Source: a virus. From it: 64,000 nucleotides of DNA. Shown here in pieces: positions 3,984-29,553 of this stretch; the stretch's first letter is position 1; every line of letters begins with the position of its first letter. The notes under the pieces were generated by a model that saw only the letters and a program-made list of their open reading frames with translations, did not search any database and was not told where the DNA came from. The stretch spans positions 17,196 through 81,195 of the IMG/VR virus record IMGVR_UViG_3300008263_000022; one strand, written 5' to 3'. The position numbers were made by a program, and so were the translations under genes.

Positions 3984-3992
3984 TTGGTTCTC

Positions 3993-9405: not shown

Positions 9406-9422
9406 GTATTCGCCTTACCTTA

Positions 9423-11080: not shown

Positions 11081-11097
11081 AATATAAAACCAATCAA

Positions 11098-11520: not shown

Positions 11521-11712
11521 TTATTTTTTCTCTGGTACCTTTGTGCCATCCAATTTTTTATGCACTTTAATTTCTTTGCAAACTTCTTTTTCTTTACCAG
11601 TTTTTTGGTCTTTTTGCATTACACAGGCTTTCTTTGTTTCTGCTGCATAAGCAACTTGATAACCAACAAAAGACCAGACCACGAGATTGAGTGCAATTAA
11701 AAACTTTTTCAT
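11521..11712 (-). CDS. Small exported protein, 63 aa
   Basis: An N-terminal signal sequence (MKKFLIALNLVVWSFVGYQV) with a likely cleavage after AYA is followed by about 40 Lys-rich residues with two cysteines that could pair in the periplasm. The predicted mature product is very small and basic. It lies between the holin-like gene and the coiled-coil gene in the lysis cassette. Function is unknown. Confidence 0.6.
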   Translation of the reverse strand: MKKFLIALNLVVWSFVGYQVAYAAETKKACVMQKDQKTGKEKEVCKEIKVHKKLDGTKVPEKK

Positions 11713-11933
11713 TTTTGTTCTTCCTTTTTAGCAAATTTTTCTGAGGCGGTAAAGCCTAATCCTGCAATTACCAAATATATCATCGAATCAAATAGTGATG
11801 GAGTTACTTTATATCCATATATGTCAGCAACAAGTGCAAAGCCACATACTAGAAATGCCAAAAATGTTATAACTCTTTTGCTACTGACTGAACTATTTTG
11901 TCCATCGGATAGCATGCTGTTCAACCAATTCAT
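11709..11933 (-). CDS. Holin-like protein with two membrane segments, 74 aa
   Basis: The start at 11933 is chosen because ATG follows the upstream stop by one base; the longer frame has no ribosome binding site. Two hydrophobic helices, VITFLAFLVCGFALVADIY (about 19-38) and SMIYLVIAGLGFTA (about 48-62), are joined by a short polar loop, and a charged tail KFAKKEEQK follows. Size and topology fit a class II holin, which would release the endolysin encoded 0.7 kb away. This is by topology only, and competing candidates exist at 13306-13419 and 11935-12411. Confidence 0.5.
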   Translation of the reverse strand: MNWLNSMLSDGQNSSVSSKRVITFLAFLVCGFALVADIYGYKVTPSLFDSMIYLVIAGLGFTASEKFAKKEEQK

Positions 11934-11934
11934 T

Positions 11935-12411
11935 TTATAACTCCGGCTGAGGTGGTTGAACTGGTGCAGCTTTGCCACCAAATCCTGTTACAACTGCTGG
12001 TGCAAATGGAGATGGTGCAGGTGCCGATGCAAAAGTAGGTGTTGTTGCACCAAAACTTGGTGTAGATGGTGTTGTTGGTGCAGGCGATACTGTTGTTGTT
12101 CTATTGGCCAACTCCAATGCTCTCTTTTGTGCATCTTTATCACCACCAGCCAACATAATGCCAGACAATGTACCTGTTAAAAATGTGGCGATAGGTATAA
12201 TCAATTCAAAGAACTTTTGATCAATTGGTGAAATAGCATTGAGTGGTTGTGTAACAAAAATTAGTGAGTATAACACCACAAACACAATACCAAACAATGT
12301 AAGTGATAAACAGATACCAATAAAAAACTTCAAGCGAGCCATTAACTGCTCTTCGGTATACATGAAACTATCAGGTTGTTTTTCTTCTTTATTAAAAATA
12401 TTTAAATTCAT
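11935..12411 (-). CDS. Membrane protein with Ala/Pro/Thr-rich tail, 158 aa
   Basis: It starts at 12411 in an ATGA overlap with the preceding stop. Two membrane helices, IGICLSLTLFGIVFVVLYSL and FELIIPIATFLTGTLSGIML, occupy about residues 33-98. A low-complexity C-terminus of about 55 residues rich in Pro, Ala and Thr follows. Topology would place both termini on the same side. It is inside the lysis cassette and may be a holin or holin partner. No family is recognised. Confidence 0.6.
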   Translation of the reverse strand: MNLNIFNKEEKQPDSFMYTEEQLMARLKFFIGICLSLTLFGIVFVVLYSLIFVTQPLNAISPIDQKFFELIIPIATFLTGTLSGIMLAGGDKDAQKRALELANRTTTVSPAPTTPSTPSFGATTPTFASAPAPSPFAPAVVTGFGGKAAPVQPPQPEL

Positions 12412-12680
12412 TTGCAATTCGCTCCTGTTACTGGTACGGTCGGTGTATTTTGTGCAAGAGGTTTATTACCTCCTGGTCCCAATCGTGGGTCATTTTGACC
12501 TTTGAATATGTGTTCTGGACAAGTTCTTGTTACGTCACAATATGGTAGTTTGCATATATCTTTATCCCAATTCGATGGGTCTTGGCAAGGATAACGAAAA
12601 CGGTCGCCACTAAAATAAGCCAATGTCAATGGTAATAATAATATGAACAATATCCATTTCATTAACTTTTTATCATTCAT
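12408..12680 (-). CDS. Cys-containing membrane-anchored or exported protein, 90 aa
   Basis: An N-terminal hydrophobic helix (WILFILLLPLTLAYF) is followed by a cysteine-rich region with YPCQDPSNWDKDICKLPYCD and CPEH, then a Pro/Asn-rich tail. Similar YPCQDPxNW proteins occur, to my knowledge, next to lysis genes in aquatic T4-like phages. The cysteines would lie in the periplasm and may form disulfides. The start shares a base with the endolysin stop (TAATG type), so it is co-translated with it. Confidence 0.6.
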   Translation of the reverse strand: MNDKKLMKWILFILLLPLTLAYFSGDRFRYPCQDPSNWDKDICKLPYCDVTRTCPEHIFKGQNDPRLGPGGNKPLAQNTPTVPVTGANCK

Positions 12681-13306
12681 TAATGAACTCCTAATACATG
12701 AAGTGCGTGTTCATAATGTTTAATTCTATCTTCAAGTCCAATGGTACCACCATTGATACGCTTTGTTAATGTGAGTATGTCGCCTTTGTCCGCCCATTGG
12801 TTTAGATTGTTTGTTTCCCAAAACCAGCAAGCAGATTGAGCTGCACCTTCAAATGTTTGTAGATATTCAGATGCTTGTTCAACAGGTATTTCAATTGAGG
12901 CAGCAAACCAAGAATAGTTTTCTTTACCTGTCAATTGAATTAAACCACGACCACAATAACGAAAACCATCACCAGATGCCTCATCGCCATTACCCATGCG
13001 ATTAGCATAGATACGATTTGCAATTGCTTCTTGTTTATTTGGTTTGTTTGCATACTCATTCGCCAGTTCATCTGTTGGAAAATACTTAGCAAATAGTTTG
13101 CGTAGTGTTGCAGCTTTGTAATTTAGATTCTCTTTGAGAAATACAAAATTACCAGATTCGTGAGCGCATTGTGCTATAAAGGCTGCAATACGTTGTGGTG
13201 TATCAATGCCATAGTCAGGCAACAATTGTGCCAATGCACCGTGCCATTGGCCAATGTATGGATTCTTTGGCAGTAATTGCTTGAGTTGTTCTAGTGTTAA
13301 ATCCAT
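12680..13306 (-). CDS. Endolysin, glycoside hydrolase family 19 type
   Basis: The 208-aa protein has the GH19/lysozyme-like core: catalytic Glu in AHESGNF (H49, E50), and RYCGRGLIQLTGKENY with a second Glu. It has a C-terminal KRINGG segment characteristic of chitinase-type lysins. There is no signal peptide, so it needs a holin. It cleaves peptidoglycan glycan strands at the end of infection. ATG at 13306 overlaps the stop of the 37-aa membrane gene as TAATG. Confidence 0.88.
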   Translation of the reverse strand: MDLTLEQLKQLLPKNPYIGQWHGALAQLLPDYGIDTPQRIAAFIAQCAHESGNFVFLKENLNYKAATLRKLFAKYFPTDELANEYANKPNKQEAIANRIYANRMGNGDEASGDGFRYCGRGLIQLTGKENYSWFAASIEIPVEQASEYLQTFEGAAQSACWFWETNNLNQWADKGDILTLTKRINGGTIGLEDRIKHYEHALHVLGVH

Positions 13307-15214: not shown

Positions 15215-15694
15215 TTAAGCCTTAGGCTGTTTTCTCCGAATCGACATTAAGATTGGAGTTTTTTTCTTTTTTAAATTGACACCAGGTTCACCATCTTTAC
15301 CCACACCGATGCCTGCGATTGCACCACCACCCACAACATTAGCAATTCCATCTTCATTGACAGATTCCTCAGGTACACAATTTGGTACCATGCGATTACC
15401 TTTTTTCTTTAATCCAACAGCTTTATATCCTGTCCAACAAGCTTCAGTTCTCACATTGATTGGTGCGCCACGGCGTTCTGGATTAGGATCTTCTCTACGT
15501 TTTCTTTGAGCTGCAGAAGCACGAGCTTCTTTACCAATTGCATGAGCTTTGGCTTGAGGTAAACACTTTGGTTTGCCTTCACCTGGTTCTCTTGCACAAT
15601 CACCTTTAATATTACCCTTGGTGTCCATTCGAACCCATTTTTGTTTAAACCATTTACGTAAATCTTCACCCAGGTGTTGTTTAAAGCTTTTCAT
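15215..15694 (-). CDS. Basic Cys-containing virion-region protein, 159 aa
   Basis: Start at 15694 (MKSFKQHLGEDLRKWF) is chosen because it overlaps the stop of the next gene by one base. The sequence WVRMDTKGNIKGDCAREPGE and KPKCLPQAKAHAIGK is Lys/Arg-rich, with RREDPNPERRG downstream; similar proteins accompany DUF6321-type genes in aquatic T4-like phages. The MKSFKQ/MKTFKQ opening is shared with its upstream neighbour and echoes the other head-region proteins nearby. Internal head or DNA-binding roles are guesses. Confidence 0.6.
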   Translation of the reverse strand: MKSFKQHLGEDLRKWFKQKWVRMDTKGNIKGDCAREPGEGKPKCLPQAKAHAIGKEARASAAQRKRREDPNPERRGAPINVRTEACWTGYKAVGLKKKGNRMVPNCVPEESVNEDGIANVVGGGAIAGIGVGKDGEPGVNLKKKKTPILMSIRRKQPKA

Positions 15695-15999
15695 TAACAG
15701 TTCCACTTTCTTAAAGCTTTGTTGATACGGCTATCCGGATCATTTGCTGTTTTAGCTGATGTTAATCGTTTTTTCATTCCACCCATTCTTGCACAAAATG
15801 ATTTTCTGCGATTAGCTGCTTTGGAACCTGGTTTTAGTTTAGATGGCTTTGTTGTGACAGCCATTGATAATTTAGAACCTGGATTTTCTCTACGATATGA
15901 AGCAATACCTTTACGATTTAGACCGCCTTCTGGATCTTTACCTGCAGAACGTTGCCATGCTGGAGATTTTTCTTCTAAGTATTGTTTAAAAGTTTTCAT
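15694..15999 (-). CDS. Basic phage protein, DUF6321-like, 101 aa
   Basis: The pattern SPAWQRSAGKDPEGGLNRKG, then PGSKAANRRKSFCARMGGMK and a final ALRKWNC, is what I know as a DUF6321 phage family; the number is from memory. It is strongly basic and likely binds nucleic acid. It is translationally coupled to both neighbours through 4-base or 1-base overlaps. Function is unknown. Confidence 0.65.
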   Translation of the reverse strand: MKTFKQYLEEKSPAWQRSAGKDPEGGLNRKGIASYRRENPGSKLSMAVTTKPSKLKPGSKAANRRKSFCARMGGMKKRLTSAKTANDPDSRINKALRKWNC

Positions 16000-16382
16000 A
16001 TTTTTAGTAGTATCTCTGCGATATTGTTATCTAAAGGAATATCTCCGGTTCGTATATTCTTTCCGTTAATGCCATAAATCATATCCGGTAAAATATTCAA
16101 ATACATCAAAAATGTTTTTAATACATCATAATCTCTTTGATCTATTTTATAAAACAATATTCTCGCTGTTGCTTCTGGTTCAAAAACATTATTCAATAAA
16201 ATAATGTGATTTAATATCAGCCTTTCTTTTACAGATTTTGTAATTTTATATCTACGAAATAATCGTTTTAAATATTTTATTCTTTTAATATCACTTTCAA
16301 ACTCCGACATCATACACATTGGAGAATTATAGTGTTTTACGGCATATATTAAAAAGTTTTCATCAGTCAAATTGTCAAACAT
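15996..16382 (-). CDS. Hypothetical T4-like phage protein, 128 aa
   Basis: A mostly helical, basic protein with RIKYLKRLFRRYKI and LILNHIILLNNVFEPEATAR, a pattern seen in other T4-like phages in my recollection. Hydrophobic residues are spread as in a soluble helical bundle, not in one membrane span. It lies between the small head-region gene at 16435 and the DUF6321-like gene. Function is unknown. The 52-base gap upstream is almost pure A/T with a weak hairpin. Confidence 0.55.
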   Translation of the reverse strand: MFDNLTDENFLIYAVKHYNSPMCMMSEFESDIKRIKYLKRLFRRYKITKSVKERLILNHIILLNNVFEPEATARILFYKIDQRDYDVLKTFLMYLNILPDMIYGINGKNIRTGDIPLDNNIAEILLKI

Positions 16383-16840: not shown

Positions 16841-18253
16841 TTATGTTTTTTTGTTTTGATCCAAAGGAGGACCAGGTTTTCTCATTAATGGATCAATTTC
16901 CAGGGTATCTCTGTCCTGACCAGTTAAAGTTTTACCTCCAGTTAAAACTGCTGCGGCTTGTGGTTCTTTATCACTTATAGTCAACTTTTTATCAGCTCTT
17001 ACCATCGATGGTTTTTTACCATAGGGAGTTTCAAGTTTATCTGTTTTTTCTTTATCATACATGATACCACCACCAGATTGACCATCAACACCTTCTTTCA
17101 TGCCTTTCTTTTTATATAACGACTTAATCATACGAGCTGATTTAGACATTTCTTTTCTTTTATTGTATTTCTCATCAGCCGGTAAATCAACAATTTCCAT
17201 ACCTGTTGTTTGTGTAGCAGCATATGAATCTTGATAAGTATCTTCTTTATTAAGTAGTCTGGATATAAATGAAGCCTTTTTAGATGGGTTCTTGGCCAGA
17301 GTTTTTGGTTTAGGATTATAACTTGGAGTGCCCAAATTTACCTTAACATTCCTTTTATTTTTGATTGAATCTAAAGCAGCTTGAGATACATGACCTTGAA
17401 CTCCTGTGGAAAAAACTTCCGACACATCTTCAGTTTCTTCTGATGTTGGTTTGTAGCCAGCTAAACGGTCTAAAGCTCTATTCCAACTTTTGCTATGGGA
17501 TTTAATTTTTTTGTTGTGGTCTTTTCTGGTCATACCTGGTTTTTTCTCAGGTACAACCGGTTGTTGTTTTAACCAAGAAAATACTGTAGATTTTTTGAGT
17601 TCATCAATCTGTTCAACTTCTTCATCAATACCACTTCCATGAAATTTATGAGCAATATGCATGGCCAATTTTTCATGTTTTTCTTTTGGTACATTGGTAC
17701 TTCTTAAATATGATAAAGCTGATTGGTGGACTTTATTATCATCTCCAGCATCACTATTATAAGGAGCATGTTCAGAGTTTGTCCAATTATTGAAATGGTG
17801 TTCAACTTCTGAACTGGAAACTTCATCAATCTGTTCAGCTTCTTCTTTGTTTAGATGTTTCTCTAAACGGTCAATTGCAGCAGTCATACCAGAACCATCT
17901 TTAGATTGTTTCTTCTGAATCTCATCGTGTTTCTTTTCTCTTTCAGCTGCAGCTGCACGAAACTTCTCTAGTGCTGTCGGTTTCTTTTCTTCAGAAAATG
18001 ACCGTTTAGCCATAATCTTGGCTAATTTACTCATTGCTTTCTTACGGGGTTCAGCTCGTTTTGGATCTTTACTGGTTGTTTTCAGAACATAAGATGCCAA
18101 TGTTTCTGGAGCCAACTCATCAAGTTGTTCAGATTCTTCTTTTAAACCTAAACGGCGAGCCTCTCCTTCCATAAAAGAGTGCAGACTTTCGAATTCGCTA
18201 AATGATTTAGCAATTTTAACTTGATACCATTCCTCTACTTCTCCACCTTCCAT
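16841..18253 (-). CDS. Large Lys/Glu-rich head-region protein with EQ(I/L)DE motifs, 470 aa
   Basis: Low-hydrophobicity, highly charged protein with at least three copies of a motif of the form EE(S/A/V)EQ(L/I)DE: about residues 39-46 and 137-144, and again near 215-222. Each precedes a short helical module (for example LAPETLASYVLKTTSKDPKR). The motif contains L/I-x-E, the recognition of T4 prohead protease gp21, so these may be processing sites of an internal head protein. No enzyme domain is visible. It overlaps the 51-aa gene by 19 bases. Confidence 0.6.
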   Translation of the reverse strand: MEGGEVEEWYQVKIAKSFSEFESLHSFMEGEARRLGLKEESEQLDELAPETLASYVLKTTSKDPKRAEPRKKAMSKLAKIMAKRSFSEEKKPTALEKFRAAAAEREKKHDEIQKKQSKDGSGMTAAIDRLEKHLNKEEAEQIDEVSSSEVEHHFNNWTNSEHAPYNSDAGDDNKVHQSALSYLRSTNVPKEKHEKLAMHIAHKFHGSGIDEEVEQIDELKKSTVFSWLKQQPVVPEKKPGMTRKDHNKKIKSHSKSWNRALDRLAGYKPTSEETEDVSEVFSTGVQGHVSQAALDSIKNKRNVKVNLGTPSYNPKPKTLAKNPSKKASFISRLLNKEDTYQDSYAATQTTGMEIVDLPADEKYNKRKEMSKSARMIKSLYKKKGMKEGVDGQSGGGIMYDKEKTDKLETPYGKKPSMVRADKKLTISDKEPQAAAVLTGGKTLTGQDRDTLEIDPLMRKPGPPLDQNKKT

Positions 18254-18390
18254 TTTGCAAACTCAGCTGATTTTGCATGAGAAATTTTTGTATCTTTTGT
18301 TACAAATCTAGGATTGATTCCTCTAGAATTTAAATATACACTTAGAAGCTTTTCTTCACTGGCTTCACTAATTGTTTTATTTTCTATCAT
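18235..18390 (-). CDS. Small conserved protein, 51 aa
   Basis: Starts at ATG 18390, two bases after the preceding stop region, and ends inside the first codons of the next gene. The sequence (ISEASEEKLLSVYLNSRGIN, then FVTKDTKISHAKSAEFAKWK) looks like a short DNA- or protein-binding helical domain and recalls N-terminal pieces of other head-region proteins here. It may originally have been part of its neighbour. Function is unknown. Confidence 0.55.
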   Translation of the reverse strand: MIENKTISEASEEKLLSVYLNSRGINPRFVTKDTKISHAKSAEFAKWKVEK

Positions 18391-18392
18391 TT

Positions 18393-20138
18393 TTAACTTT
18401 CAGATGTGCCTAATTTACCTAACATTTCTGTTCTAACTTTTTTTAATGCTGCTTTGGCCAAATCTCTTGCTCTGGACATTGGTGTATGAACTGCACCAGA
18501 TTTGTCTTTAACATTACTCGGAATTCTTGTATATGGTTGTTCAAATGGAGGTGCATCATCCGTTTCTGGACGTTTTCCTTCTTTAAGCTTGAGTGATGAA
18601 GCAGTTTCATGTGATTTTCTTGCTGGTGTGTCATCTGGTTGTATTGCTATAGGTGTAGAATCTTTTGGTTGATGTTCGCCTTCTTTATCCAAAGGCCTAA
18701 CTCTTATTTTATAGGATTTAAAATCATTTGATTTACCACCAGGCATGCGACCAATTAATGTATCGGTTGTTATGGCAGAAGAATCTTCAGTTCCTTCTTT
18801 CATTGCTTGTTTTGTTGCTGTGGCATACATTACTGATTTAGCATCTTTACCATAGCGTGATTTGAACCCAGCCAAACCTTTTTTCATTGACTTAACAATT
18901 TTTTCACGTTTGGCCATTTCATCATCAGTCATTTGCTTTTCGTCCAACTCAACTTCTTCGCTAGCATAAGCCTTAACGCTGTCGTGCGGATCGCCTCTCA
19001 TCAGTTTGCGACCAATTGCTGTATCTACATTGGAACCTAATCCTAATTTTCTGATTTTATTATCACGCCTAAATTTAGAACCCAATTTAGCTGCATAAAC
19101 TTTTGCCTTAATTTTATTATCTCTTGCTTGTTCGGAAGCTTCATCCAATTCTTCAGCTTCTTCTTTCTTCATTGATTTTTTGAAACTTTTATTCAACATA
19201 GGAAGTAAAGCGCTAGTGGTTTGTTTGACGGTAGGACTTTTTCCTGGTGCATTTAAATCTGTTGGATCTTTTTTAGCGGAAGATTTAAATGCCTTCGTCA
19301 AAGATTTACCTTCTTTACTATCAGGATGTGGATATGTGTCCATTTCATTCACCTGTTCAGATTCTTCTTTAACAGATTTCCAACCACCACCCATTGCTTT
19401 GTATTTTTTAGAAGCCCAACCATTGGCATATGCAGAAGGATAAACAGCAAACTTAGATTTGGCAGCCGCTTTGGCACGAGCCCATTTTTCTGGACTTGTT
19501 GGCACATTCTTCTCATCAATCTGTTCAACTTCTTCATTGCGTGCTTTTGCTAGATTTTTTGGATCAGAAATAGAATCTTTTGAACCAGACTTTACTTCAG
19601 CTGGTGTTAATGGTGCATCACCACGAGCTTTGCGAACATAAGCAGGAATATCAGAACGCTTCATGCCTTCGATTAATTTCTTTGCAAAGTACATATCTTC
19701 TTTGACTTTCTTTTTGCTACGGAGAATAGCAAAATCATGAGCGTCAACTTTATTATTTTTATTGGCATCAATCTTATGTTGGTCACCCTTTAATTCTTCA
19801 GCAACTTTCTTTTTGGTGGCTAATGCGGACTTCATTGGCTCTTTTTTGTCACCGTCTTTATCAAAGTCTAAGTAATCTGGCTTGGCAGCTTCATCATACT
19901 TACCTTTTGTTTTCTCATGTTCTTCTTTGTCTTTCTGCATCAAGTCTTTTGTTTTAGGACCTTTGAGGTCATCAACAGAAGATTTAGTTTGATCTTGTTT
20001 AGCCTTTGCAGAATTACCATAACTACGGCCATAAACTTTCATGCCTGTAGAAGTGGGTTCTTTGATGGGACTGGCTTCACCAATAATGTTTTTAACAGCA
20101 TCTACCAAAGATTGGCTTACATTATTTTTTGTAAACAT
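18393..20138 (-). CDS. Large charged head-region protein with EF-hand-like loop and DUF5872-like module, 581 aa
   Basis: Several recognisable pieces sit in a very Lys/Glu/Asp-rich chain. DANKNNKVDAHDF, at about 125-137, fits a calcium-binding EF-hand or dockerin loop. The module KWARAKAAAKSKFAVYPSAY, continuing to the WASKKYKAMGGGW segment, is one I know as DUF5872-like. Protease-motif-like repeats EEVEQIDEK, EESEQVNEM, EEAEELDEA and EEVELDEK are spread along the protein. Such mosaic proteins are likely packaged in the head and cleaved during maturation. It starts at 20138 behind GGAGAAAAAA. Confidence 0.6.
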   Translation of the reverse strand: MFTKNNVSQSLVDAVKNIIGEASPIKEPTSTGMKVYGRSYGNSAKAKQDQTKSSVDDLKGPKTKDLMQKDKEEHEKTKGKYDEAAKPDYLDFDKDGDKKEPMKSALATKKKVAEELKGDQHKIDANKNNKVDAHDFAILRSKKKVKEDMYFAKKLIEGMKRSDIPAYVRKARGDAPLTPAEVKSGSKDSISDPKNLAKARNEEVEQIDEKNVPTSPEKWARAKAAAKSKFAVYPSAYANGWASKKYKAMGGGWKSVKEESEQVNEMDTYPHPDSKEGKSLTKAFKSSAKKDPTDLNAPGKSPTVKQTTSALLPMLNKSFKKSMKKEEAEELDEASEQARDNKIKAKVYAAKLGSKFRRDNKIRKLGLGSNVDTAIGRKLMRGDPHDSVKAYASEEVELDEKQMTDDEMAKREKIVKSMKKGLAGFKSRYGKDAKSVMYATATKQAMKEGTEDSSAITTDTLIGRMPGGKSNDFKSYKIRVRPLDKEGEHQPKDSTPIAIQPDDTPARKSHETASSLKLKEGKRPETDDAPPFEQPYTRIPSNVKDKSGAVHTPMSRARDLAKAALKKVRTEMLGKLGTSES

Positions 20139-21897
20139 TTTTTTCTCCGTTGTTTTTCTTCTTTTTAATTGTTATTGTTTGAGTTTGGTTATCCGATGGA
20201 GTAACCATAGGCTCTTTATTTGAAGCACCACCAAGTGTGCCACCAACACCCATGTCGTTGGCACCAGGATCATCTATTGCTTCTAATACTTTTCTAAATT
20301 TATTAAATTGCTTTTGTTCTCTATATGTTACATCGCCAAGACCGGACATGGGATATACTGTTCCCTGCTGGCGTGTATCGTATTCTGGACCTATTCCGGT
20401 CACATTTCTAATTCTTTGGCTTACCGACTGTATGTCGGTAAACCGTTTTTTGCTTACTTTTTCTTTGTCCTTGGAGAAATTGGTTTCTTTGGGGACTGGC
20501 GAGATTTTGAGGACTGGCTTTTGGGCTTCTGTGTAGGTGCGGAAGTTGTAGCTGCCGCCTCGTTTGTTTGCGTTCCACTTGATGTCGTCTGCGTTGGGGT
20601 CGCTGGCTCGATTGTCGGCTGGGATACTGTCGAGTCCGTTTGTTCGGAGCTCTGGTGTGGTTTTAATTTTATAAAATCGATTAGTGCTTTTAACATTTTT
20701 TTCTTCCTTAAATAATGAAATATTTCTATTTTTCCAATCACTAGCGATATCACTTATATTGCCAGTATCCAAGAATTGTTTAGTAAATTGATATACTTCC
20801 GTAATGTCCTCTTCCTTGGTATCTATATCACCGGTATTATCGAAACCGATAAAATCCACAAATGATTCTCTGAAATATTTAGTATTTTCTTGACATTTCA
20901 TCCATTTATCATACCGTACAGACTCCACCATCATTCTAGACAATGCTGAGTTTCTCTCCTTACTAACTTCATTTGTGGTATTGACAAAAATCATCATTGT
21001 GTCATACCCCAATTCTTCCAATTCTTCTTTTATATATGACAATTTTTCAAAATCATCAGCTGGTCCGTTAATAATTAATGGACCCCTTCTACGAATAGAT
21101 TCTCTACGGAAATCACTTGTTTTTTCTGATAGTTTTTGTTTATCACTCAAGTAATCTCTGGCTTGAACAAAATTCAATTCTACAATTTTGGACTCTGCAA
21201 TGGCTTCACGGATTACAATATCTTTACCAGAACCTGGACCACCAGTCACAAAAATGGCTTTAAATTGGCCATGATTATGTGCTTCATGTAGGCCCATACC
21301 TTTGCGTGTATCGTGCATGAGGTCTTTTGCATGTTTATCTGACACATGATCAGGAACACCTTTTCTAAATTCTCCAAAGTTTTTATTTTTGGCGTGCTCT
21401 CTCATTTTGGTGCCTGACATTCCGGTGGAACCTTCAGCGTCCGGATCACGGTGGCCAGCAGAATGAACAGTAATTTTTTTAAAATCGTAATGGCCGTGTT
21501 TACCTTTTACACCATTATATTTGTGTAGTGAATCTTTGAACTCTTTAACACGGTCAGAACCAACAACCACATGAAGGTGGGTTATACCTTGTTTGTGTAA
21601 TTCGGCAGCATGATGAAAGATAGATGGATGTTCTTTTGAGGACGATTTTAAATTAGTACCTGGTGCATATCTTTTTAAATGTTTAACTTTAGATTCACCA
21701 GACAATGGATTTTTTTTAGAATCTTGTGAATGAGATACCACAACAGTATGACCTGCATTGTTTTTATCTGCAACTTCTTTGACCTTATGAATAAGTTTAA
21801 GGTGTCCTGTTGTAGGAGGATTCATCCGACCAAAAGTCATCACATGATGTTTCTGTGACGATTCATCTTCTTGAACTAATTCTAAAAATGATTTCAT
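20122..21897 (-). CDS. Nucleotidyltransferase plus P-loop domain fusion in the head region, 591 aa
   Basis: Residues 22-32 (FGRMNPPTTGH) and 160-167 (MSGTKMRE) are the two signatures of NMN-adenylyltransferase-like nucleotidyltransferases (T/HxGH and ISxTxxR). Residues 219-226 (GGPGSGKD) are a Walker A motif starting a kinase-like P-loop domain with an RRRGPLIINGPADDF segment resembling zeta-toxin or NadR-type kinases. The C-terminal third is unstructured and Lys-rich. The same domain order occurs in NadR (NMN adenylyltransferase plus ribosylnicotinamide kinase), but length and context differ. The start shares the MKSFLELVQED style of nearby head proteins, suggesting it is packaged. Chemistry is inferred from motifs only. 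Confidence 0.65.
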   Translation of the reverse strand: MKSFLELVQEDESSQKHHVMTFGRMNPPTTGHLKLIHKVKEVADKNNAGHTVVVSHSQDSKKNPLSGESKVKHLKRYAPGTNLKSSSKEHPSIFHHAAELHKQGITHLHVVVGSDRVKEFKDSLHKYNGVKGKHGHYDFKKITVHSAGHRDPDAEGSTGMSGTKMREHAKNKNFGEFRKGVPDHVSDKHAKDLMHDTRKGMGLHEAHNHGQFKAIFVTGGPGSGKDIVIREAIAESKIVELNFVQARDYLSDKQKLSEKTSDFRRESIRRRGPLIINGPADDFEKLSYIKEELEELGYDTMMIFVNTTNEVSKERNSALSRMMVESVRYDKWMKCQENTKYFRESFVDFIGFDNTGDIDTKEEDITEVYQFTKQFLDTGNISDIASDWKNRNISLFKEEKNVKSTNRFYKIKTTPELRTNGLDSIPADNRASDPNADDIKWNANKRGGSYNFRTYTEAQKPVLKISPVPKETNFSKDKEKVSKKRFTDIQSVSQRIRNVTGIGPEYDTRQQGTVYPMSGLGDVTYREQKQFNKFRKVLEAIDDPGANDMGVGGTLGGASNKEPMVTPSDNQTQTITIKKKKNNGEKNVYKK

Positions 21898-21906
21898 TTT
21901 GTCTTT

Positions 21907-23307
21907 TTAATGTGAAGCGGCCGGAGTAACGGTATAATTTGATGTATCGGATTTTAAAGCATTGCTATTTGTTTTTGGTCTATAGTGAGCTAGTGCTGTA
22001 TGTGAACCATTTTTTTCAACTTTATGTAGTGTTACTGTAGCACCGTTTCTAGATACAGCATATTTTGATTTTTTATTATTAAAAACTTTATTTAATGGAT
22101 GTTCACTTCCGGGTGTAACAGTAGATTTAATTTTATGTTCTTCGTGACCCATCACATGAACTTTAGACCAAGGCATTTTGGTATTTGGTGTTAAATGTTT
22201 TTTTAACATTTGGCCAACCATTCTATGTCCTTCATCTCCAGTATGGTGTAATAAATGATGTATATGATTATGTAATTCTTCAGCAGTATCTTTATGTACT
22301 GGTTGAGCTAATTTGCTTGCCTTTTGTTCAACGGAAGAATGCTTTGTGACATTTTCTTTTTTTCTAACGGCATCAATATGTCTACCCCTCTCAGCTGCAG
22401 ATTTATCACCGTGACCCATTTCACTATGAACTTTTTTTAATCCTTCTCTTGCAATTTTTTCAGTTTCTAATTTTCTTGTTGGGTGGTCTAACATATGATC
22501 CAAATGTATTGCTGGATTTTTAGTTGTTATATTTTTAGATTTTTTGGACGATTTTAATGAAAATCCATCATAATTATGTTCATGTCCGGCACCAAATTCT
22601 TCCTTTAAATGGCCAGGAACATATGTTTTTACTGTGATGTCGGATGGATTTTCTTGAGTATCGTTATGTTTTCCTTGTGTGAATTTTCCAATATCTCCTT
22701 CTTTAGATGTGTGTCCAACTGCAGCAATTTTAACGTGAGGACCATGTTTTTGTTTTAATGTTTCTATAATTGAACCGGCTGCTGCTTTACCGTGGGCTTG
22801 TCTTAACCTAAATTCTTTTTCGTGTGTTTTATTTGTTACATATTTCTTTTTAATGTCAGCTAGAGCTTTTACATGTGAAGTTAAATCTTTTTTATGTTCT
22901 GGAGTTCCATAAGTTCCATGTTGTGTATGCATATGATGAATTAAATGTATTGCTGTGGAATGTTCTGTTGTTTTTCCTGAAGGATCATTTCCAAGACCTT
23001 CTTCTTTTTTTTCTTCTCTTAGATGTCCTTCGTGATTTTCGTGACCTGCTTTTTCTAATTCATCTTTGGTGGGAGTATCAGCATTATGTTCCCAATGAAC
23101 TAATTTTGTTATATTATTTAAATTTTTGTTATAAAAAACAGCATGAGAACCGTTAGTATTATTAAAAACATGAACATCAACTTTATGTCCATCTTTTGTT
23201 GTATATGTATGGTGTGGTTTTAAATTTGAAAAATCGTGGTCATCACCAAAATTTTCTTTAATTAGTCCGGCACGGTCAAGATATATTCTTAATTGTAAAC
23301 TTGTCAT
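21907..23307 (-). CDS. His/Lys-rich head-region protein, 466 aa
   Basis: Very rich in His, Lys and Thr with little hydrophobic content, beginning MTSLQLRIYLDRAGLIKENF. It contains THGTYGTPEHKK-like repeats and AHGKAAAGSIIETLKQKHGP, but I see no catalytic signature. It overlaps the KxDG ligase-like protein by 4 bases and shares its composition, so the two probably act together or are packaged together. The His content could bind metal or buffer charge around DNA. No confident family. Confidence 0.55.
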   Translation of the reverse strand: MTSLQLRIYLDRAGLIKENFGDDHDFSNLKPHHTYTTKDGHKVDVHVFNNTNGSHAVFYNKNLNNITKLVHWEHNADTPTKDELEKAGHENHEGHLREEKKEEGLGNDPSGKTTEHSTAIHLIHHMHTQHGTYGTPEHKKDLTSHVKALADIKKKYVTNKTHEKEFRLRQAHGKAAAGSIIETLKQKHGPHVKIAAVGHTSKEGDIGKFTQGKHNDTQENPSDITVKTYVPGHLKEEFGAGHEHNYDGFSLKSSKKSKNITTKNPAIHLDHMLDHPTRKLETEKIAREGLKKVHSEMGHGDKSAAERGRHIDAVRKKENVTKHSSVEQKASKLAQPVHKDTAEELHNHIHHLLHHTGDEGHRMVGQMLKKHLTPNTKMPWSKVHVMGHEEHKIKSTVTPGSEHPLNKVFNNKKSKYAVSRNGATVTLHKVEKNGSHTALAHYRPKTNSNALKSDTSNYTVTPAASH

Positions 23308-24494
23308 TTTCTCACCTTTAACAAATTTTGTTTAGCAAATTCTGCACGGTTAACCAATTTGGTTGGTTCATTTTCGTGGTGAACCACAAAGCCTTCAGGT
23401 TTAGATTTTTTGCCATCAATATGGTGTTCATAATGACCTTCATGTGTTTCTAAGGATTTCACCAAAGCATTTTTGGCTTGATGTAAATGGTGATGCATCG
23501 ACAATAAATTTCCATAATGAGCTTTGTGTTTTTCAACATGAGAAATTTGAGATTGACCTTCTTTTGTTTTTTCAGATTTTGATTTTTCAGATTTTACTTT
23601 TGCGGCCTGCTTTTCATGAACGTTGTGTATATGTTCTTTAAAACCTTTAACACTCGGAACTTCATCATGTTTTACTGTTTTGTTTATGTATGTTGATAGG
23701 TGGCCAGCTTCTCCACTATGTTTTGGATGAACGGCATCATACATCTTGTGACCATGTGTGTCGTGTATTTCTTTGGCTGCAGCCATATGTTTTTGAAAAT
23801 GTTTTTCATTTTCGGCTGAATGTTTTACTTTGCTTGTATCATGTTCTGCGCCATGAATATGTACATCTGGATGTTCTTTGAATTTGCCCATATCAATATG
23901 TGGAGAAGCGTGTTTCATATCATCACTATATTGATGGTGAACAACAACACCAACTTTGGACTTTTTAATCTTTTCTGCTTCTTTACCTTTGGCAGTATAT
24001 GTGATTGTATTGGGAGTAAACGAAACATCACCTTTTGCTTCTACAATGTAACTTTCGTGTAAGGTCTTTGTGTCGGCATGATGCATTAAATCACCTTGAT
24101 ATACGCCATGTTTTGGTGTAACTTTTGGTAAATGTTTTAATGCGTGTTTGAGTGTTTTTGCTAATCCTGGTGCATGACCATGATTTTTATCGATATCTTT
24201 TTCTGTGTGATTAATCTTTGGATTTTTATTGAAGGCCGATTTTGTTGCAACAAAAAACTTACCATTCTTAGGATGGTGACCAAAAACAATTGATGGAGAA
24301 CCGTCATATTTCATCGTGAGATTGGTGTTTTTATTTTTGCTGATTATATGTTGATGAGCAGCCATCAAAGCGCCATGTGCATGTTCAAAACCAGCATGGC
24401 CGTGCATTAATGGTCTATCTTCAGCATGATGAATATGTTTGAGTTCGGAACTTTGTTCCGATTCTTCAGTTAAGAATGACTTAAATGATAACAT
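23304..24494 (-). CDS. His-rich KxDG ligase/nucleotidyltransferase-like protein, 396 aa
   Basis: Start at 24494 follows AAAGGAAATTCA; upstream Met codons lack a ribosome binding site. About 54 of 396 residues are His. Residues 62-65 (KYDG) are the covalent nucleotidyltransferase motif I of DNA/RNA ligases and capping enzymes, EGFV at 367-370 fits motif IV, and TKLVNR at 378-383 fits motif V. A YQGDLM segment stands where motif III would be. It resembles a phage family I recall as DUF6267. The N-terminus (FLTEESEQSSEL) matches the processing-like motif of other head proteins. Enzyme activity is inference. Confidence 0.6.
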   Translation of the reverse strand: MLSFKSFLTEESEQSSELKHIHHAEDRPLMHGHAGFEHAHGALMAAHQHIISKNKNTNLTMKYDGSPSIVFGHHPKNGKFFVATKSAFNKNPKINHTEKDIDKNHGHAPGLAKTLKHALKHLPKVTPKHGVYQGDLMHHADTKTLHESYIVEAKGDVSFTPNTITYTAKGKEAEKIKKSKVGVVVHHQYSDDMKHASPHIDMGKFKEHPDVHIHGAEHDTSKVKHSAENEKHFQKHMAAAKEIHDTHGHKMYDAVHPKHSGEAGHLSTYINKTVKHDEVPSVKGFKEHIHNVHEKQAAKVKSEKSKSEKTKEGQSQISHVEKHKAHYGNLLSMHHHLHQAKNALVKSLETHEGHYEHHIDGKKSKPEGFVVHHENEPTKLVNRAEFAKQNLLKVRK

Positions 24495-24618: not shown

Positions 24619-25632
24619 TTAAAACAATTTTTGTGTCCAAGTTTTAGGAGTTTTCTCGGAAATAATTTCCAGTGGTAGGTGATACTCAAAAGGTCTTGTT
24701 CCTCTTGAGTTTATATAATCAATCTGTTTTTGTAGAGATTGTTCCAATGAAATTTTTGTTTTATAACCAAAGAAATATCTGATTTTATCGGCTGAACAGT
24801 TGGCGTGTTTTACCTCTTGTGGTCGACCTGGCATGAATACTGGATTTAGTTCGAAATTCAACAGCTTGGCAACAACTTGAGCCAGTTCCAAAATGGTTAC
24901 CGGATTCTCATCAGGTCCAATATTGAATATTTCTCCAACCGCTTTAGGATTCTCAGCAAATTCCACAAGGCAGTCAACGTCATCTGATATATCAGAGAAA
25001 CATCTGGTTTGTGAACCATCAGCATAGATAATAGGTTGGCGGCCTTGCAACATCAAATTAATCATAATACTTGCCACATTTCTAAAGGGATCATCATACT
25101 TCTGACGAGGGCCAATGATATTGTGTGGAATAGCAATAACTAGTTCAATACCGTGTATCTCGGCAAGATTTTGTAGTAGTAATTCTGTACCATACTTTGC
25201 AATACCATATGGGTCTTGTGGTTTACAAGTCATATCTTCGGTGAAAGGAACTCTATCTTGTGTTCCATATCTGGCCATTGAAGAACAATGAACAAATTTA
25301 GGAACTCCGGATTGAATAGCCGCAGTTATAGCATTCACAGCAATTTGCGTTGTGTTCTGAACAATTAATGATGGAGAAAAAACCGAGAGGCCTTCATATG
25401 CTGTGCACGCTGTATGATATACAACATCACATCCGGCCATCATATTTTTTAATTTAGTAAAATCTATCAAATCTTCTTGGTAGAATTCTACTTCATCCGG
25501 AACATTATCTCGATATCCACCCAATAGATTATCAATACCCGCAACTTGATATCCTTTAGATAAAAATGCATCAGCCAAATGTGATCCTAAAAAACCGGCC
25601 ACGCCAGTAATAAAAACTTTTTTTATTGCCAT
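24619..25632 (-). CDS. NAD-dependent sugar epimerase/dehydratase (SDR), 337 aa
   Basis: Extended short-chain dehydrogenase with the NAD-binding GVAGFLGSHL at about 10-19, the catalytic Ser in HCSSMARYG and the YxxxK pair in DPYGIAKYG. UDP-glucose 4-epimerase-like enzymes have this layout; the substrate is a nucleotide sugar (UDP- or GDP-linked) that cannot be told from sequence. It is the last gene of the glycan island and overlaps the heptosyltransferase-like gene by 10 bases. Confidence 0.88.
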   Translation of the reverse strand: MAIKKVFITGVAGFLGSHLADAFLSKGYQVAGIDNLLGGYRDNVPDEVEFYQEDLIDFTKLKNMMAGCDVVYHTACTAYEGLSVFSPSLIVQNTTQIAVNAITAAIQSGVPKFVHCSSMARYGTQDRVPFTEDMTCKPQDPYGIAKYGTELLLQNLAEIHGIELVIAIPHNIIGPRQKYDDPFRNVASIMINLMLQGRQPIIYADGSQTRCFSDISDDVDCLVEFAENPKAVGEIFNIGPDENPVTILELAQVVAKLLNFELNPVFMPGRPQEVKHANCSADKIRYFFGYKTKISLEQSLQKQIDYINSRGTRPFEYHLPLEIISEKTPKTWTQKLF

Positions 25633-26336
25633 TTTGTTCCCTCAAAATCTAACCAATATGTTGTCATTTTGCCTTTTCCTTCTAGTAGATAAAATGGTAA
25701 AGTGTGAATTAATCCTCGACTGGATCCATAGTATAACAGGTCTTTAGGTCCTTTGTCAAGAGCCCAAGCGAAATGGCTTGAACCTGTATCGCCACCCACA
25801 AATATTTCAGCTGTTGTGATGTGGTAATAGTTTTGTACAAAATTAGTAGAATATCGCCAACCATCAAACGGACATCCTTCTGTAGGCTCACCTTTTTTAC
25901 AAATTATTTTTTCGTAATCTTTATATTCTTCGGTAGAATATTTGGCGATAATCTGTTCATATACATTCTTTGGCCAGTTACGCCATTGATTGTAAGGAGC
26001 ATCAAATAATGGAAATACTGCAATCTTCTTTTCCATTGGTGCATTGTTTGGTATTTTTATCAAGTCACCAGATATATCTCTGAAATCCCAAACATTGACT
26101 TTTCTCCAAGGTAATGATTGTTCACCCGGTTCTGTTGAAAAATAGTTAGTCATCTTCAACATTATCTCATAAAATGTTTGACAATGTGTGTCAGAGCTAA
26201 CATTACCTGGCTTCAAGTGGAATTGAATTAGTGGATTGTTGTTAACTTTTCGTATGTGCTCTAATACATTAGCAACGCCAATCATGTCACCATTACGAAC
26301 TGTACCAAAGGTGCCTGCTTCAATATTAATAATCAT
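25623..26336 (-). CDS. GT9/heptosyltransferase-like glycosyltransferase, 237 aa
   Basis: The C-terminal half has the GT-B nucleotide-binding pattern of ADP-heptose transferases: KIAVFPLFDAPYNQWRNWP and FVGGDTGSSHFAWAL. The protein is shorter than bacterial heptosyltransferases (about 320-350), so the N-terminal domain is reduced. It overlaps its neighbours on both sides by 4 to 10 bases and resembles the next gene upstream in style, suggesting they work in sequence. The acceptor is unknown. Confidence 0.6.
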   Translation of the reverse strand: MIINIEAGTFGTVRNGDMIGVANVLEHIRKVNNNPLIQFHLKPGNVSSDTHCQTFYEIMLKMTNYFSTEPGEQSLPWRKVNVWDFRDISGDLIKIPNNAPMEKKIAVFPLFDAPYNQWRNWPKNVYEQIIAKYSTEEYKDYEKIICKKGEPTEGCPFDGWRYSTNFVQNYYHITTAEIFVGGDTGSSHFAWALDKGPKDLLYYGSSRGLIHTLPFYLLEGKGKMTTYWLDFEGTKWQ

Positions 26337-27076
26337 AATAGTGTTTGCAATTCATTTGCATGAACAAGTTTAGCTTTTCGATTCAAATAGAAATGTTTTT
26401 CAAATATTTGATTGATGTTCTTGCCATTATCCCACGATACATCATCACCAACTCTAAATTCTGGTTTCCAATCTTCTGCTTTCCAAACACAATATAAAGG
26501 AACATTACATAGGTCAGCGAGCATACCAACACCAGTAAAGTTTGTGATAAATGGCTTCTTTAAATTTTTAATAATGTAAGCATTCTCCAACATTGGCCGA
26601 TTAAAATTAAGAAACTCACAATCTTTTAAATGTGATAGTATATGAGTTTCTCTGCGGTCATCAATATTACCCACCGCCCAGCGGTCACCAACATAATATG
26701 CATCTTTCACAGTAATATTATATTCTGGTGTTTTTACTGTGAAATCATCATCAACTTTAAATAACATTCTGTATTTGTCATTCAACCAATTTTCATAACG
26801 ACAAGTTTCTATTGGTCTATTCGGATCTTTTTTATCCTCTCTAATTGGCCATGAACTTAAATTAATGACATCACCATACATAAACAATTCGTCATCAAAA
26901 GAAACATCAGTAAATAAATCTTGATAAAGTAAAAATTCTTTAATGCCATTAAATTTACGCATTTCACTTTTAATCACAAGATCAAATTTAGCAACATCTT
27001 TACTTATACCAGCCAAAACAGGCATGGCATTTAAAAAATCACCTAGATTAGAGGTACCACTAACAAATATTTTCAT
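26333..27076 (-). CDS. Glycosyltransferase-like protein, GT-B type, 247 aa
   Basis: It starts MKIFVSGTSNLGDFLNAMPV, the N-terminal Rossmann pattern of heptosyltransferase-like (GT9) enzymes (GLGD loop written NLGD). PFITNFTGVGMLADLCNVPL stands where the second nucleotide-binding domain would be. Together with 25623-26336 it may form the two halves of one transferase function. No membrane segment. The assignment rests on pattern only. Confidence 0.55.
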   Translation of the reverse strand: MKIFVSGTSNLGDFLNAMPVLAGISKDVAKFDLVIKSEMRKFNGIKEFLLYQDLFTDVSFDDELFMYGDVINLSSWPIREDKKDPNRPIETCRYENWLNDKYRMLFKVDDDFTVKTPEYNITVKDAYYVGDRWAVGNIDDRRETHILSHLKDCEFLNFNRPMLENAYIIKNLKKPFITNFTGVGMLADLCNVPLYCVWKAEDWKPEFRVGDDVSWDNGKNINQIFEKHFYLNRKAKLVHANELQTLL

Positions 27077-27867
27077 TCAGCAAATTCCTTAAAGGCAACA
27101 AACCAGTCCGATTTAGAAACTGGATGTAATTCAAACAATTCTGGTTTTTGTAGATAAGACATTAATAGTAATGTTTGGTCGTCATCAACTAAATCATTTT
27201 TAAGTAACTCATTTATGCTATGATACACCATTTTTTCTAGTGTTGGCCACATTTCTTTTCCTGCAACAATACACGGGCCTGTTACATGAACATCATTGTT
27301 AAAAATAACATCACTAATATATGTGTTGGGTGTCCACTCTTTAATATTGAAGAAATGTATTTTATTTTTATCAAAAGGATATTTCCATTTCTTAACACCA
27401 TTGAGTGTTGATTCTTCTCGGCAATAACCAAAATCCATCCATGCAACAAGGTCGGTGGTAATTAAATTATTCTCAATTGCTTTTGAAATGAAAGAGGATT
27501 TCAATGCATTGACAATAACATAGTCAGCATTCCAATACTCTGGATTGCGATTTTCTTTAAGATTAATTTTACTTTGATATTCAGGATTTTTTTGTACCTT
27601 TGAAACTTTTTCTCTTAGTTCTTGAAAGTTATTTTCGAAATCAACTGTGAGTATATCGGTAACTCGGTCTTGCCTTAAAAATTTAATATCATTGACGAAT
27701 TCTTTTGATGTGTATACAACCATAGGATTTTCTAATTTAGCCATGTGACCAAATCTTTGTAGGTATGTTTGATTTGTTCGATGTAGATAGTGTGGTAAAC
27801 CTTTATCTGGTGTCCAGTCACCACGGCCAATATCAAAGAAGGCAGTTACAATCGTTATGTCGTTCAT
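27073..27867 (-). CDS. HtrL/YibB-like protein, 264 aa
   Basis: Start at 27867 overlaps the preceding stop as ATGA. It reads DITIVTAFFDIGRGDWTPDK near the beginning and has EYWNADYVIVNALKS and VAWMDFGYCR further on, a pattern I recognise as the HtrL_YibB family, linked in bacteria to lipopolysaccharide or capsule loci. It is probably a GT-A-like transferase. It sits centrally in the glycan island. Confidence 0.65.
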   Translation of the reverse strand: MNDITIVTAFFDIGRGDWTPDKGLPHYLHRTNQTYLQRFGHMAKLENPMVVYTSKEFVNDIKFLRQDRVTDILTVDFENNFQELREKVSKVQKNPEYQSKINLKENRNPEYWNADYVIVNALKSSFISKAIENNLITTDLVAWMDFGYCREESTLNGVKKWKYPFDKNKIHFFNIKEWTPNTYISDVIFNNDVHVTGPCIVAGKEMWPTLEKMVYHSINELLKNDLVDDDQTLLLMSYLQKPELFELHPVSKSDWFVAFKEFAE

Positions 27868-28592
27868 ATCCAATAATATTTTTTATAGTTATTAACAATT
27901 TCTATTTTTTCTGGTTGTTCATTTACAAATTTATCATAATCATAACCATCGTTTTGATGGTGATGAGTATCTGTCATATAAGGATTTACTGAATAATTCT
28001 TACCGCATAAAAAATAATATACAACCATATAACAATCCATATAACCCAAAGGATTATATTTTATTTGAAACCAATCATGATTTTTTTTAAACCACTCAAC
28101 CACTCTGTCATAATTGTTTAAGAAAGTTGAAACTTTAAATATAGAACCTCCACCACAACCATACTGATCAGTTAAAGGTTTCGTGCCAGAAAAAGATTCA
28201 ATACTATCTATAATGAAATCAGGAATCACATTTCCAATACGAATATCGTGGCCTACCATTTCCCAATCATCTTCTATTGTAATTTGTTTTTTAATCCAAA
28301 CATCATCTTCCATCATCATTATATGTGATGTGCCACATTTTTGGCAAGCTAGTTTAAATCTTTCTAACCACAATAATAATTTTTCTAAGTTATAACTAGG
28401 ATATCCCACTTTGGTTCTAAAAGGATAGTAATCACAATTATTGTCGATTGCAATATCAGATAAATCATCTGCATTATCTGATCCCAAAAAGTAATAGGCA
28501 TCAGGATAATATTTTCTCACATTCTCTACCATTTTTTCGGTAGACAATTTTTTACCAGCTGAAGCAAGATGACAGAAAGAAATATCAGGCAT
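27864..28592 (-). CDS. Putative GT-A glycosyltransferase, 242 aa
   Basis: A MEDDV motif following SHIMM near the middle is the DxD-like metal and nucleotide-sugar site of GT-A enzymes, and GCGGGSIFKVSTFL is the kind of acceptor loop expected after it. The C-terminal part is Tyr-rich. It overlaps the methyltransferase gene by 8 bases. Donor and acceptor are unknown. Confidence 0.6.
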   Translation of the reverse strand: MPDISFCHLASAGKKLSTEKMVENVRKYYPDAYYFLGSDNADDLSDIAIDNNCDYYPFRTKVGYPSYNLEKLLLWLERFKLACQKCGTSHIMMMEDDVWIKKQITIEDDWEMVGHDIRIGNVIPDFIIDSIESFSGTKPLTDQYGCGGGSIFKVSTFLNNYDRVVEWFKKNHDWFQIKYNPLGYMDCYMVVYYFLCGKNYSVNPYMTDTHHHQNDGYDYDKFVNEQPEKIEIVNNYKKYYWI

Positions 28593-29022
28593 ATCTCACC
28601 ACAAACATAATAGAATCACTCATATTGGAAATTTCACGAGCATCAATAATCTCATACACCATATTATCAGGAACCAATTTAATATATTCTTCAGTCCATT
28701 CCATTTGTGCAATATCTTCAATAACAAATACTCCGCCAGGATTTAATTTGGACAAATAAATTGACAATGATTGTAAATGACTTTCTCTTGTATGTGGTCC
28801 GTCATCAATGATAATATCAAAGTTAGATAGTGTTTCAGCAAACTCTCTCCGATAACCATCAGCATAAGTTATATTGATTCTAGGAAATTTTGCACAATTT
28901 TCTTTTGCGCCAAAATCCATAGGATCTACACCGTATATTTGAGCTTTGGTGAAATACTCATGAAATACTGCAAGTCCGCCTCCACGATGAACTCCAATTT
29001 CCAATAATTTAATTTCTTTATC
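28585..29022 (-). CDS. Class I SAM methyltransferase, N-terminus missing
   Basis: The frame opens right after the stop region of the upstream gene with IKLLEIGVHRGG, which is motif I of a Rossmann methyltransferase (EIGVHRGGGLAVF). IYGVDPMDFG (motif II), DIIIDDGPHTRESH and GGVFVIEDI follow. Only a TTG at 29004 could start it, inside motif I, with no ribosome binding site. Such proteins usually have about 30-40 residues before motif I. The start and first helices therefore seem lost, in the phage or in this assembly. Confidence 0.6.
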   Translation of the reverse strand, partial: DKEIKLLEIGVHRGGGLAVFHEYFTKAQIYGVDPMDFGAKENCAKFPRINITYADGYRREFAETLSNFDIIIDDGPHTRESHLQSLSIYLSKLNPGGVFVIEDIAQMEWTEEYIKLVPDNMVYEIIDAREISNMSDSIMFVVRYA

Positions 29023-29025
29023 TCA

Positions 29026-29553
29026 TTATTTTCTTTCAATGAGTGTCATGCCGTTATTGTTTGTTCTTCGTTCAACTAATTGCCATTCTGGATGTGTAAA
29101 TAGAAATTCATCGATTGCGGGCCAAACTCCTCTTTCTCCGCCTTGTCCTCTATCACCAAATAATGTGGTATCGTGAAAGAAAATATATTTTTTAACTTTA
29201 TGTGCATGTAATGCCAATTCCTGAACAACTTGTTCATATGAATGATAACTATCGACCAAAAGAACATCAGTAGGATCAATATTAGCTTCTAATGTACTCT
29301 GTACATGAAGTGTCACATTTCTTCCGCCAGCGATGGCCGATTTAAAATAAGCACCTGTTTCTGGATACACATTAATGTCATAACTGTGCATTTCAATATC
29401 TTGTCGTAAAAAACCTCTAGTACTTTGTGCATATCCTACACCAAACTCGGTTGCATGTTTACAACGAGAAGCTATTTGTGAAATCCAAGGCAGGTGTTCA
29501 TGTATATCTGTATTTCTCACACAAGCTTCTTGGTATTCTTTTTCAAAATTCAT
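29026..29553 (-). CDS. SAM-dependent methyltransferase, 175 aa
   Basis: The motif I region reads HATEFGVGYAQSTRGFL, then DVLLVDSYHSYEQVVQEL, and YIFFHDTTLFGDRGQGG, a layout common in small sugar or cephalosporin-hydroxylase-type methyltransferases that use metal. It shares one base with the preceding gene. It probably modifies a sugar assembled by the neighbouring transferases. Confidence 0.7.
   Translation of the reverse strand: MNFEKEYQEACVRNTDIHEHLPWISQIASRCKHATEFGVGYAQSTRGFLRQDIEMHSYDINVYPETGAYFKSAIAGGRNVTLHVQSTLEANIDPTDVLLVDSYHSYEQVVQELALHAHKVKKYIFFHDTTLFGDRGQGGERGVWPAIDEFLFTHPEWQLVERRTNNNGMTLIERK

Follow-up and report, generated by a model that had tools for sequence, protein, structure and literature searches.

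A T4-type capsid targeting tag marks probable nucleotidyltransferase and ligase-like cargo in a T4-like phage

Introduction

In bacteriophage T4 the first ten residues of the internal protein IPIII are enough for packaging into the head; residues 4 and 7 of this tag act in targeting and residues 8 and 10 in processing by the protease gp21, which cuts after L/I-x-E (PMC9026906). The products of T4 ipII and ipIII both begin MKTYQEFIAE. In cyanophages, mass spectrometry has found proteins resembling cytidylyltransferases or nicotinamide mononucleotide (NMN) adenylyltransferases in the virions of S-SM1, S-CREM2, S-SCSM1 and S-SZBM1, and the same literature proposes that these enzymes enter the cell with the DNA (PMC3037559, PMC10665884, PMC9602691, PMC9146016). 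Here we analyse a window of 64,000 bases (positions 17196-81195 of the 89,563-base IMG/VR virus record IMGVR_UViG_3300008263_000022) from an aquatic T4-like myovirus that, by gene order and homologues, is of the Kyanoviridae type (cyano-, pelagi- and methylophages). Nearly all genes of the window lie on the minus strand, including five that we label, in transcription order, P5, P4, P3, P2 and P1 (23304-24494 down to 16841-18253) and whose reading frames all exist as originally predicted. We conclude, with a probability of about 0.72, that the region is a cassette of internal-protein cargo in a T4-like phage, from which tagged P3, P5 and two small neighbours would be packaged, trimmed and ejected with the DNA.

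The cluster resembles the T4 system of IPI, IPII, IPIII and Alt in an N-terminal tag of ten residues whose four key positions are the same, in the gp21-type prohead protease encoded in the same genome (PF03420, 3.9e-39; 82048-82503 of the record, just past the window) and in forming a late cassette. It differs in its cargo, a nucleotidyltransferase-kinase and a ligase-like protein rather than IPs or the ADP-ribosyltransferase Alt, and its trimming and ejection are predictions. P3 has in common with the cyanophage virion enzymes (T4-GC190) a homologous domain (36.5% identity to the S-SCSM1 'NMNAT' over the first 205 residues of P3, 6.5e-32), the genomic neighbourhood and the tag, and differs from them in its fused P-loop kinase domain. 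The mechanism class, that of the T4 internal proteins, is already known, and others have published that enzymes of the P3 type are packaged in virions; the original prediction, which knew of no described system of this kind, was too strong in view of the four cyanophages. Three things appear to be undescribed: the use of one transferable tag as an addressing signal across this phage group, the occurrence of DUF6267 (the family of P5) as tagged ligase-like cargo, and the natural fusion or physical coupling of DUF6267 to P3-type enzymes. The available text of the cyanophage virion papers does not mention the tag, and our literature search, whose coverage may be incomplete, found 'capsid targeting' paired with cyanophages only in one T4 review.

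A ten-residue tag in the gene cluster

P3 (20122-21897) and P5 (23304-24494) begin with MKSFLELVQE (21868-21897) and MLSFKSFLTE (24465-24494), respectively, which match the T4 sequence at positions 4, 7, 8 and 10. Its homologues support the ATG at 24494, where they begin too, and not an upstream GTG, as the start of P5. Across the whole 89.6-kb record the tag pattern is found at 4 of the 530 candidate starts of 151 genes, against 0.30 expected from internal positions. All four tagged genes fall within this cluster: besides P3 and P5 they are a DUF6321 protein (15694-15999, minus strand; PF19846, 2.8e-19) with the tag MKTFKQYLEE, and a small basic protein (15215-15694, minus strand) with the tag MKSFKQHLGE, whose ATG at 15694 is codon 5 of the listed open reading frame. 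The pattern was composed after T4-like tags and the window had been seen, which makes the count, taken by itself, partly circular; the other tests of the tag are more independent.

The tag rule (aromatic or hydrophobic residues at positions 4 and 7, L or I at 8, E at 10) is followed in full by P5 and the DUF6321 protein. The small basic protein departs from it with H at position 7, and P3 with V at position 8, a substitution that could make processing of P3 weaker. By its sequence, the tag belongs with the capsid targeting sequences of T4.

The tag in other viruses

Homologues of DUF6267 were gathered through internal conserved peptides, independently of the tag. At the N termini of 43 such proteins (<75% identity), entropy is 1.1-1.5 bits at positions 4 (F), 7 (F/Y), 8 (L) and 10 (E), compared with 2.5-3.3 bits at positions 2, 3, 5, 6, 9 and 11-18. 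The low-entropy positions are the four singled out by mutagenesis in T4. In the model that AlphaFold gives for P5, residues 1-17 are disordered, as they should be if the tag is removable.

We also scanned IMG/VR with a DNA pattern that encodes nothing but the tag and for which about 0.3 matches are expected per 10^10 positions at 35% GC. This retrieved at least 82 starts in at least 80 loci (L204-L283), and the matches listed fall into at least about 50 unrelated protein clusters, many of them unannotated. Among the matches listed are DUF6267 (5.8e-102), CTP_transf_like and DUF6321 proteins, so that the window's own families are recovered from the tag alone, together with a HAD protein, a NUDIX protein, a methyltransferase, a lysozyme, an ADP-ribosyltransferase (PF03496) and nuclease-like proteins. 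The clusters retrieved in this way form a candidate list of injected effectors. Separately, a second nucleotidyltransferase-like paralogue in eight loci (L012, L014, L021, L029, L034-L036 and L070) starts with MKDYRQLIKE, which fits the tag.

Tagged proteins in related virions

The P3 relatives detected in virions begin with MKKFSAFLNEA (S-SM1), MKNFSSFLTEA (S-CREM2) and MKSFLQFLKEA (S-SCSM1); the S-SZBM1 protein starts with MRFRQFIIEA, in which the tag is one residue shorter. When the tag is scored at annotated starts, the published S-CREM2 virion proteome contains 4 of the 5 proteins with tagged starts and 48 of the 214 others (p=0.012). The tagged and detected proteins are an S-adenosylmethionine hydrolase, a kinase, gp13 and the cytidylyltransferase. 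In the S-CREM2 genome (L131) the hydrolase, gp13, the kinase and a Cas9-like nuclease, all detected in virions, lie at 3837-5081, 10310-10546, 10579-12846 and 7704-10313, respectively. The nuclease carries LRFASFMAEAA close to its N terminus, suggesting that its annotated start is misplaced.

Two further proteins of our cluster have relatives among virion proteins. P2 shares a module with SSCSM1_92 (8e-7) and the 15215-15694 protein is similar to S-CREM2 gp160 (6.7e-9), both virion-detected; taken together, the two genes have modules in common with proteins detected in the virions of S-SCSM1, S-CREM2 and S-SZBM1.

Several points weigh against the cassette reading. The virion detections come from other phages and include no tagged DUF6267 protein. 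The literature available to us reports no cyanophage DUF6267 protein from virions, and S-SZBM1_141 is not in Table 1 of the available text; moreover, the cyanophage DUF6267 proteins are without the tag. P1, P2 and P4 lack it too. Without gp154, the cytidylyltransferase, which had been seen beforehand, the S-CREM2 test gives p ~0.04 by our own arithmetic. Finally, the authors of two of the virion proteomes name carry-over as a possible source of detection.

This last point and the untagged cyanophage DUF6267 proteins would fit another explanation, in which P3 and P5 are made during infection to serve in ordinary metabolism or repair, the virion detection of their relatives is contamination and the likeness of their N termini is a relic of lineage. 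However, the tag recurs on at least about 50 unrelated protein clusters and is conserved at its functional positions only, while the rest of the segment drifts, and we consider this explanation very unlikely.

P5 and the DUF6267 family

P5, a protein of 396 residues, is a full-length member of DUF6267 (PF19782, 2.2e-94; also phrog_455 and T4-GC71), a family present in 456 phage records and annotated as of unknown function; our literature search found no paper naming it. We propose that it is a covalent nucleotidyltransferase, which its motifs make probable. Outside the cyanophage branch, most members of the family bear the tag. Nine residues are invariant in 31 of 31 divergent homologues (K62, D64, G65, K85, D135, E367, G368, V370 and K379). 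They lie in the motifs K[WY]DG[AS]P (I), TKS (Ia), QGD (III), EG[FY]V (IV) and K[LF]V[DN]R (V), so that a KxDG motif I, present in all 31 proteins, is followed by an acidic motif III, EGxV and a motif V lysine in ligase-superfamily order. The order I-Ia-III-IV-V is that of ATP- and NAD+-dependent ligases and capping enzymes, and the EG-to-K spacing of DUF6267, 12 residues, is close to that of T4 Rnl1.

The AlphaFold model of P5 (pLDDT 89.4, pTM 0.87) has low confidence only at residues 1-17 and in a short loop. In this model the motif segments fall on strands or next to them, and a long helical insertion separates the IIIa region from motif IV. Two results tell against the ligase-like assignment. 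A Foldseek search of the model against the PDB returned no solved ligase above threshold, the best entries (4xrp, 3jsl and 1xdn, all below threshold) having a TM score of ~0.2. In addition, profile comparison with T4 Rnl1 and Rnl2 by hhalign is non-significant, in a test without power, since Rnl1 against Rnl2 also fails. The best local alignment to Rnl1 from this non-significant comparison sits exactly on motifs IV-V (EGFVVHH-ENEPTKL / EGYVAVMKDGSHFKL). Profile searches of PDB, Pfam and PHROG for a link to ligases gave only DUF6267/phrog_455 or chance matches. The original description of P5 as a KxDG ligase-like protein stands as regards the invariant KxDG and the ligase motif order; the model matched no solved fold above threshold.

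Compared with T4 Rnl1 and polynucleotide kinase-phosphatase, the locus has the KxDG, the EGxV and the lysine 12 residues after EG, and a kinase next door; relatives of the locus also carry a HAD phosphatase resembling polynucleotide kinase. It differs from Rnl1 in the absence of a significant sequence or fold match and in the helical insertion of DUF6267, which measures ~120-170 residues. To our knowledge, T4 Rnl1 is not packaged as internal cargo. We considered a bacterial origin of DUF6267 and rejected it: the matches in GTDB are mostly marine metagenome-assembled genome contigs that look phage-derived.

P3 and its coupling to DUF6267

P3 comprises a cytidylyl/adenylyltransferase domain (residues ~17-205), a P-loop kinase domain (residues ~208-405) and a low-complexity tail. 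The first domain matches PF01467 (CTP_transf_like; 1.8e-7, 31.8 bits against a cut-off of 21), phrog_3041 (1.8e-62) and phrog_395, and carries its (T/H)xGH motif as GRMNPPTTGH. The second is homologous to HTVC008M gp129 (98.9% probability), which itself matches Zeta_toxin, AAA_33 and L-seryl-tRNA kinase. These matches bear out the fusion of a nucleotidyltransferase with a P-loop protein that had been predicted from the sequence.

The domain order is also that of NadR, and P3 could be a salvage enzyme of the NadR type, uniting NMN adenylyltransferase with nicotinamide riboside kinase, and restore nicotinamide adenine dinucleotide (NAD) during infection, with no involvement of nucleic-acid ends. 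Reconstitution of NAD is a known phage strategy (PMC9503650), and P3 gives weak matches to nadR_NMN_Atrans (0.0036) and phrog_3462. Membership of the NadR equivalog itself was rejected, as P3 scores 16.6 bits where the curated cut-off is 341, and the kinase half is nearer to AAA_33, Zeta and L-seryl-tRNA kinase than to NadR. We regard NAD salvage by P3 as possible but doubtful.

Genes for DUF6267 and the nucleotidyltransferase adjoin across the phage group, and among the loci retrieved 10 have the two fused. An S-PM2 protein appears to cover both, as does phrog_455. Where the genes are separate (63 loci), both are tagged in 43, DUF6267 alone in 15 and neither in 5. In many relatives the HAD phosphatase resembling polynucleotide kinase (5e-6), sometimes itself tagged, adjoins DUF6267. 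Taken as a set, the kinase, the phosphatase, the ligase-like protein and the candidate nuclease (P4, below) hint that at entry the ends of nucleic acid may be healed and sealed, or processed. Taken further, the virion might deliver an end-processing kit, consisting of the candidate nuclease, the P-loop kinase, the HAD phosphatase of the relatives and the KxDG ligase, addressed by one transferable tag and acting before phage gene expression; in this full form we think the idea rather unlikely. In a variant that would account for the fusions, the fused nucleotidyltransferase would recycle NMN and so supply NAD+ to a ligase-like partner that uses it.

P1, P2 and P4

The untagged members of the cluster have features of their own. 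P2 (18393-20138, minus strand) is a Lys-rich, low-complexity protein with EEVEQIDE-type repeats, and P1 (16841-18253, minus strand) is a charged, low-complexity protein. EQ(I/L)DE-type motifs occur at three sites in P1 and three to four in P2, where shuffling predicts ~0.01, and only once in the 19,031 residues of the remaining window genes; there are none in P3, P4 or P5. Plain [LI]xE sites are enriched marginally at most (P3, p=0.04; P2, p=0.065), and we rejected such counts as uninformative. As to the extreme charge or His content noted originally, His makes up 13.6% of P5 and 11.2% of P4, and Lys 14-17% of P1 and P2. On these features P1 and P2 look like charged core or internal proteins, and are candidates for processing.

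P4 (21907-23307, minus strand) is His-rich and occupies a slot between P5 and P3 that is variable among relatives. A tblastn search with P4 found no phage homologue. It is a distant member of a family, F12 (hhalign 97.3%, 2e-11), that has no Pfam match and keeps E42, D137 and S155xK157; these residues make it a candidate PD-(D/E)xK-like nuclease.

The original prediction had four or five consecutive genes sharing one set of features. It merged two: the tag, in P3, P5 and two neighbours outside the original span, and the internal repeats, in P1 and P2. P3 and P5 have the tag without the repeats, P1 and P2 the repeats without the tag, and P4 neither. The SFL..E openings attributed to four or five genes hold for P3, P5 and the two neighbours and not for P1, P2 or P4, and the EQ(I/L)DE-type motifs for P1 and P2 and not for P3-P5.

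Proposed mechanism

Gene order points to late expression of the cassette. By analogy with T4, and in line with the conservation of the tag, the tagged products would dock on the prohead scaffold core through residues 4 and 7, and the gp21 homologue would cut after E10 (L/V-x-E). For P3 and P5, packaging with trimming by the PF03420 protease is the best reading; P1, P2 and P4 are untagged, and P1 and P2 may be chopped by the same protease at EQ(I/L)DE. The trimmed proteins would be kept in the head alongside the DNA, as the virion data of others indicate for P3 relatives only, and would enter the cell with it. Going by their motifs, P5 would form a lysyl-AMP-type intermediate as DNA and RNA ligases do, and P3 would perform nucleotidyl transfer. 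The cargo would act on nucleotides or nucleic-acid ends, with tRNA or DNA ends as the leading candidate targets and NAD metabolism behind them.

The tag could also be real and yet bring these proteins into the prohead with no part beyond that of scaffold or core filler, while the enzymes act late in the infected cell and are not ejected. T4 core proteins are likewise cut and mostly lost (PMC9026906), and many of the other tagged reading frames among the matches listed encode low-complexity proteins without enzyme domains. Set against this, the nucleotidyltransferase is retained in four published virion proteomes, the active-site motifs of DUF6267 are strictly conserved, and the tagged families include an ADP-ribosyltransferase, the class (by T4 annotation) of the injected T4 Alt. 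A role as filler alone seems to us quite unlikely, and we favour ejection of the tagged proteins with the DNA.

Genome context

Within the cluster, 15996-16382 encodes an untagged DUF7207 protein that has the same place in S-SZBM1, S-SCSM1 and S-CREM2. It is not marked as virion-detected in the available parts of the S-SCSM1 and S-CREM2 proteomes, which makes it a useful negative control. Sugar epimerase, glycosyltransferase-like and methyltransferase-like genes follow one another directly upstream of the cassette (24619-31096); in some relatives an upstream start of the 28585 gene reads MKSLVDIMVE, which resembles the tag. Proteins with a common 'PADIY...SLKK' segment (hhalign 92%, window against S-SCSM1_90) are encoded at 31382-32641 and in two relatives (L136, 27459-28793; L002, 9321-10811), and in relatives these genes lie upstream of DUF6267 or the nucleotidyltransferase. 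They are possibly a PD-(D/E)xK-like family, and one is detected in S-SCSM1 virions.

A second strong CTP_transf_like protein (56769-57557), untagged and fused to a cupin-like part, is presumably rfaE-like, and an untagged protein of 123 residues at 3993-4364 has a similar look. Two minus-strand features provide head-gene context: 62116-63465, which from T4 gene order alone we take to be a gp23-like major capsid gene, and the adjoining 63497-63922, which from its position and the same order is presumably a gp22-like prohead core region.

Significance

If this reading is true, a short tag would allow injected phage proteins to be found by sequence search among the T4-like phages of the sea and of fresh water, which are very abundant viruses. 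The tag would account for the repeated finding of nucleotidyltransferases in cyanophage virions, and DUF6267, a Pfam family of unknown function, would gain a testable chemistry. It would also provide a list of candidate injected effectors, many of them from unrelated and unannotated families.

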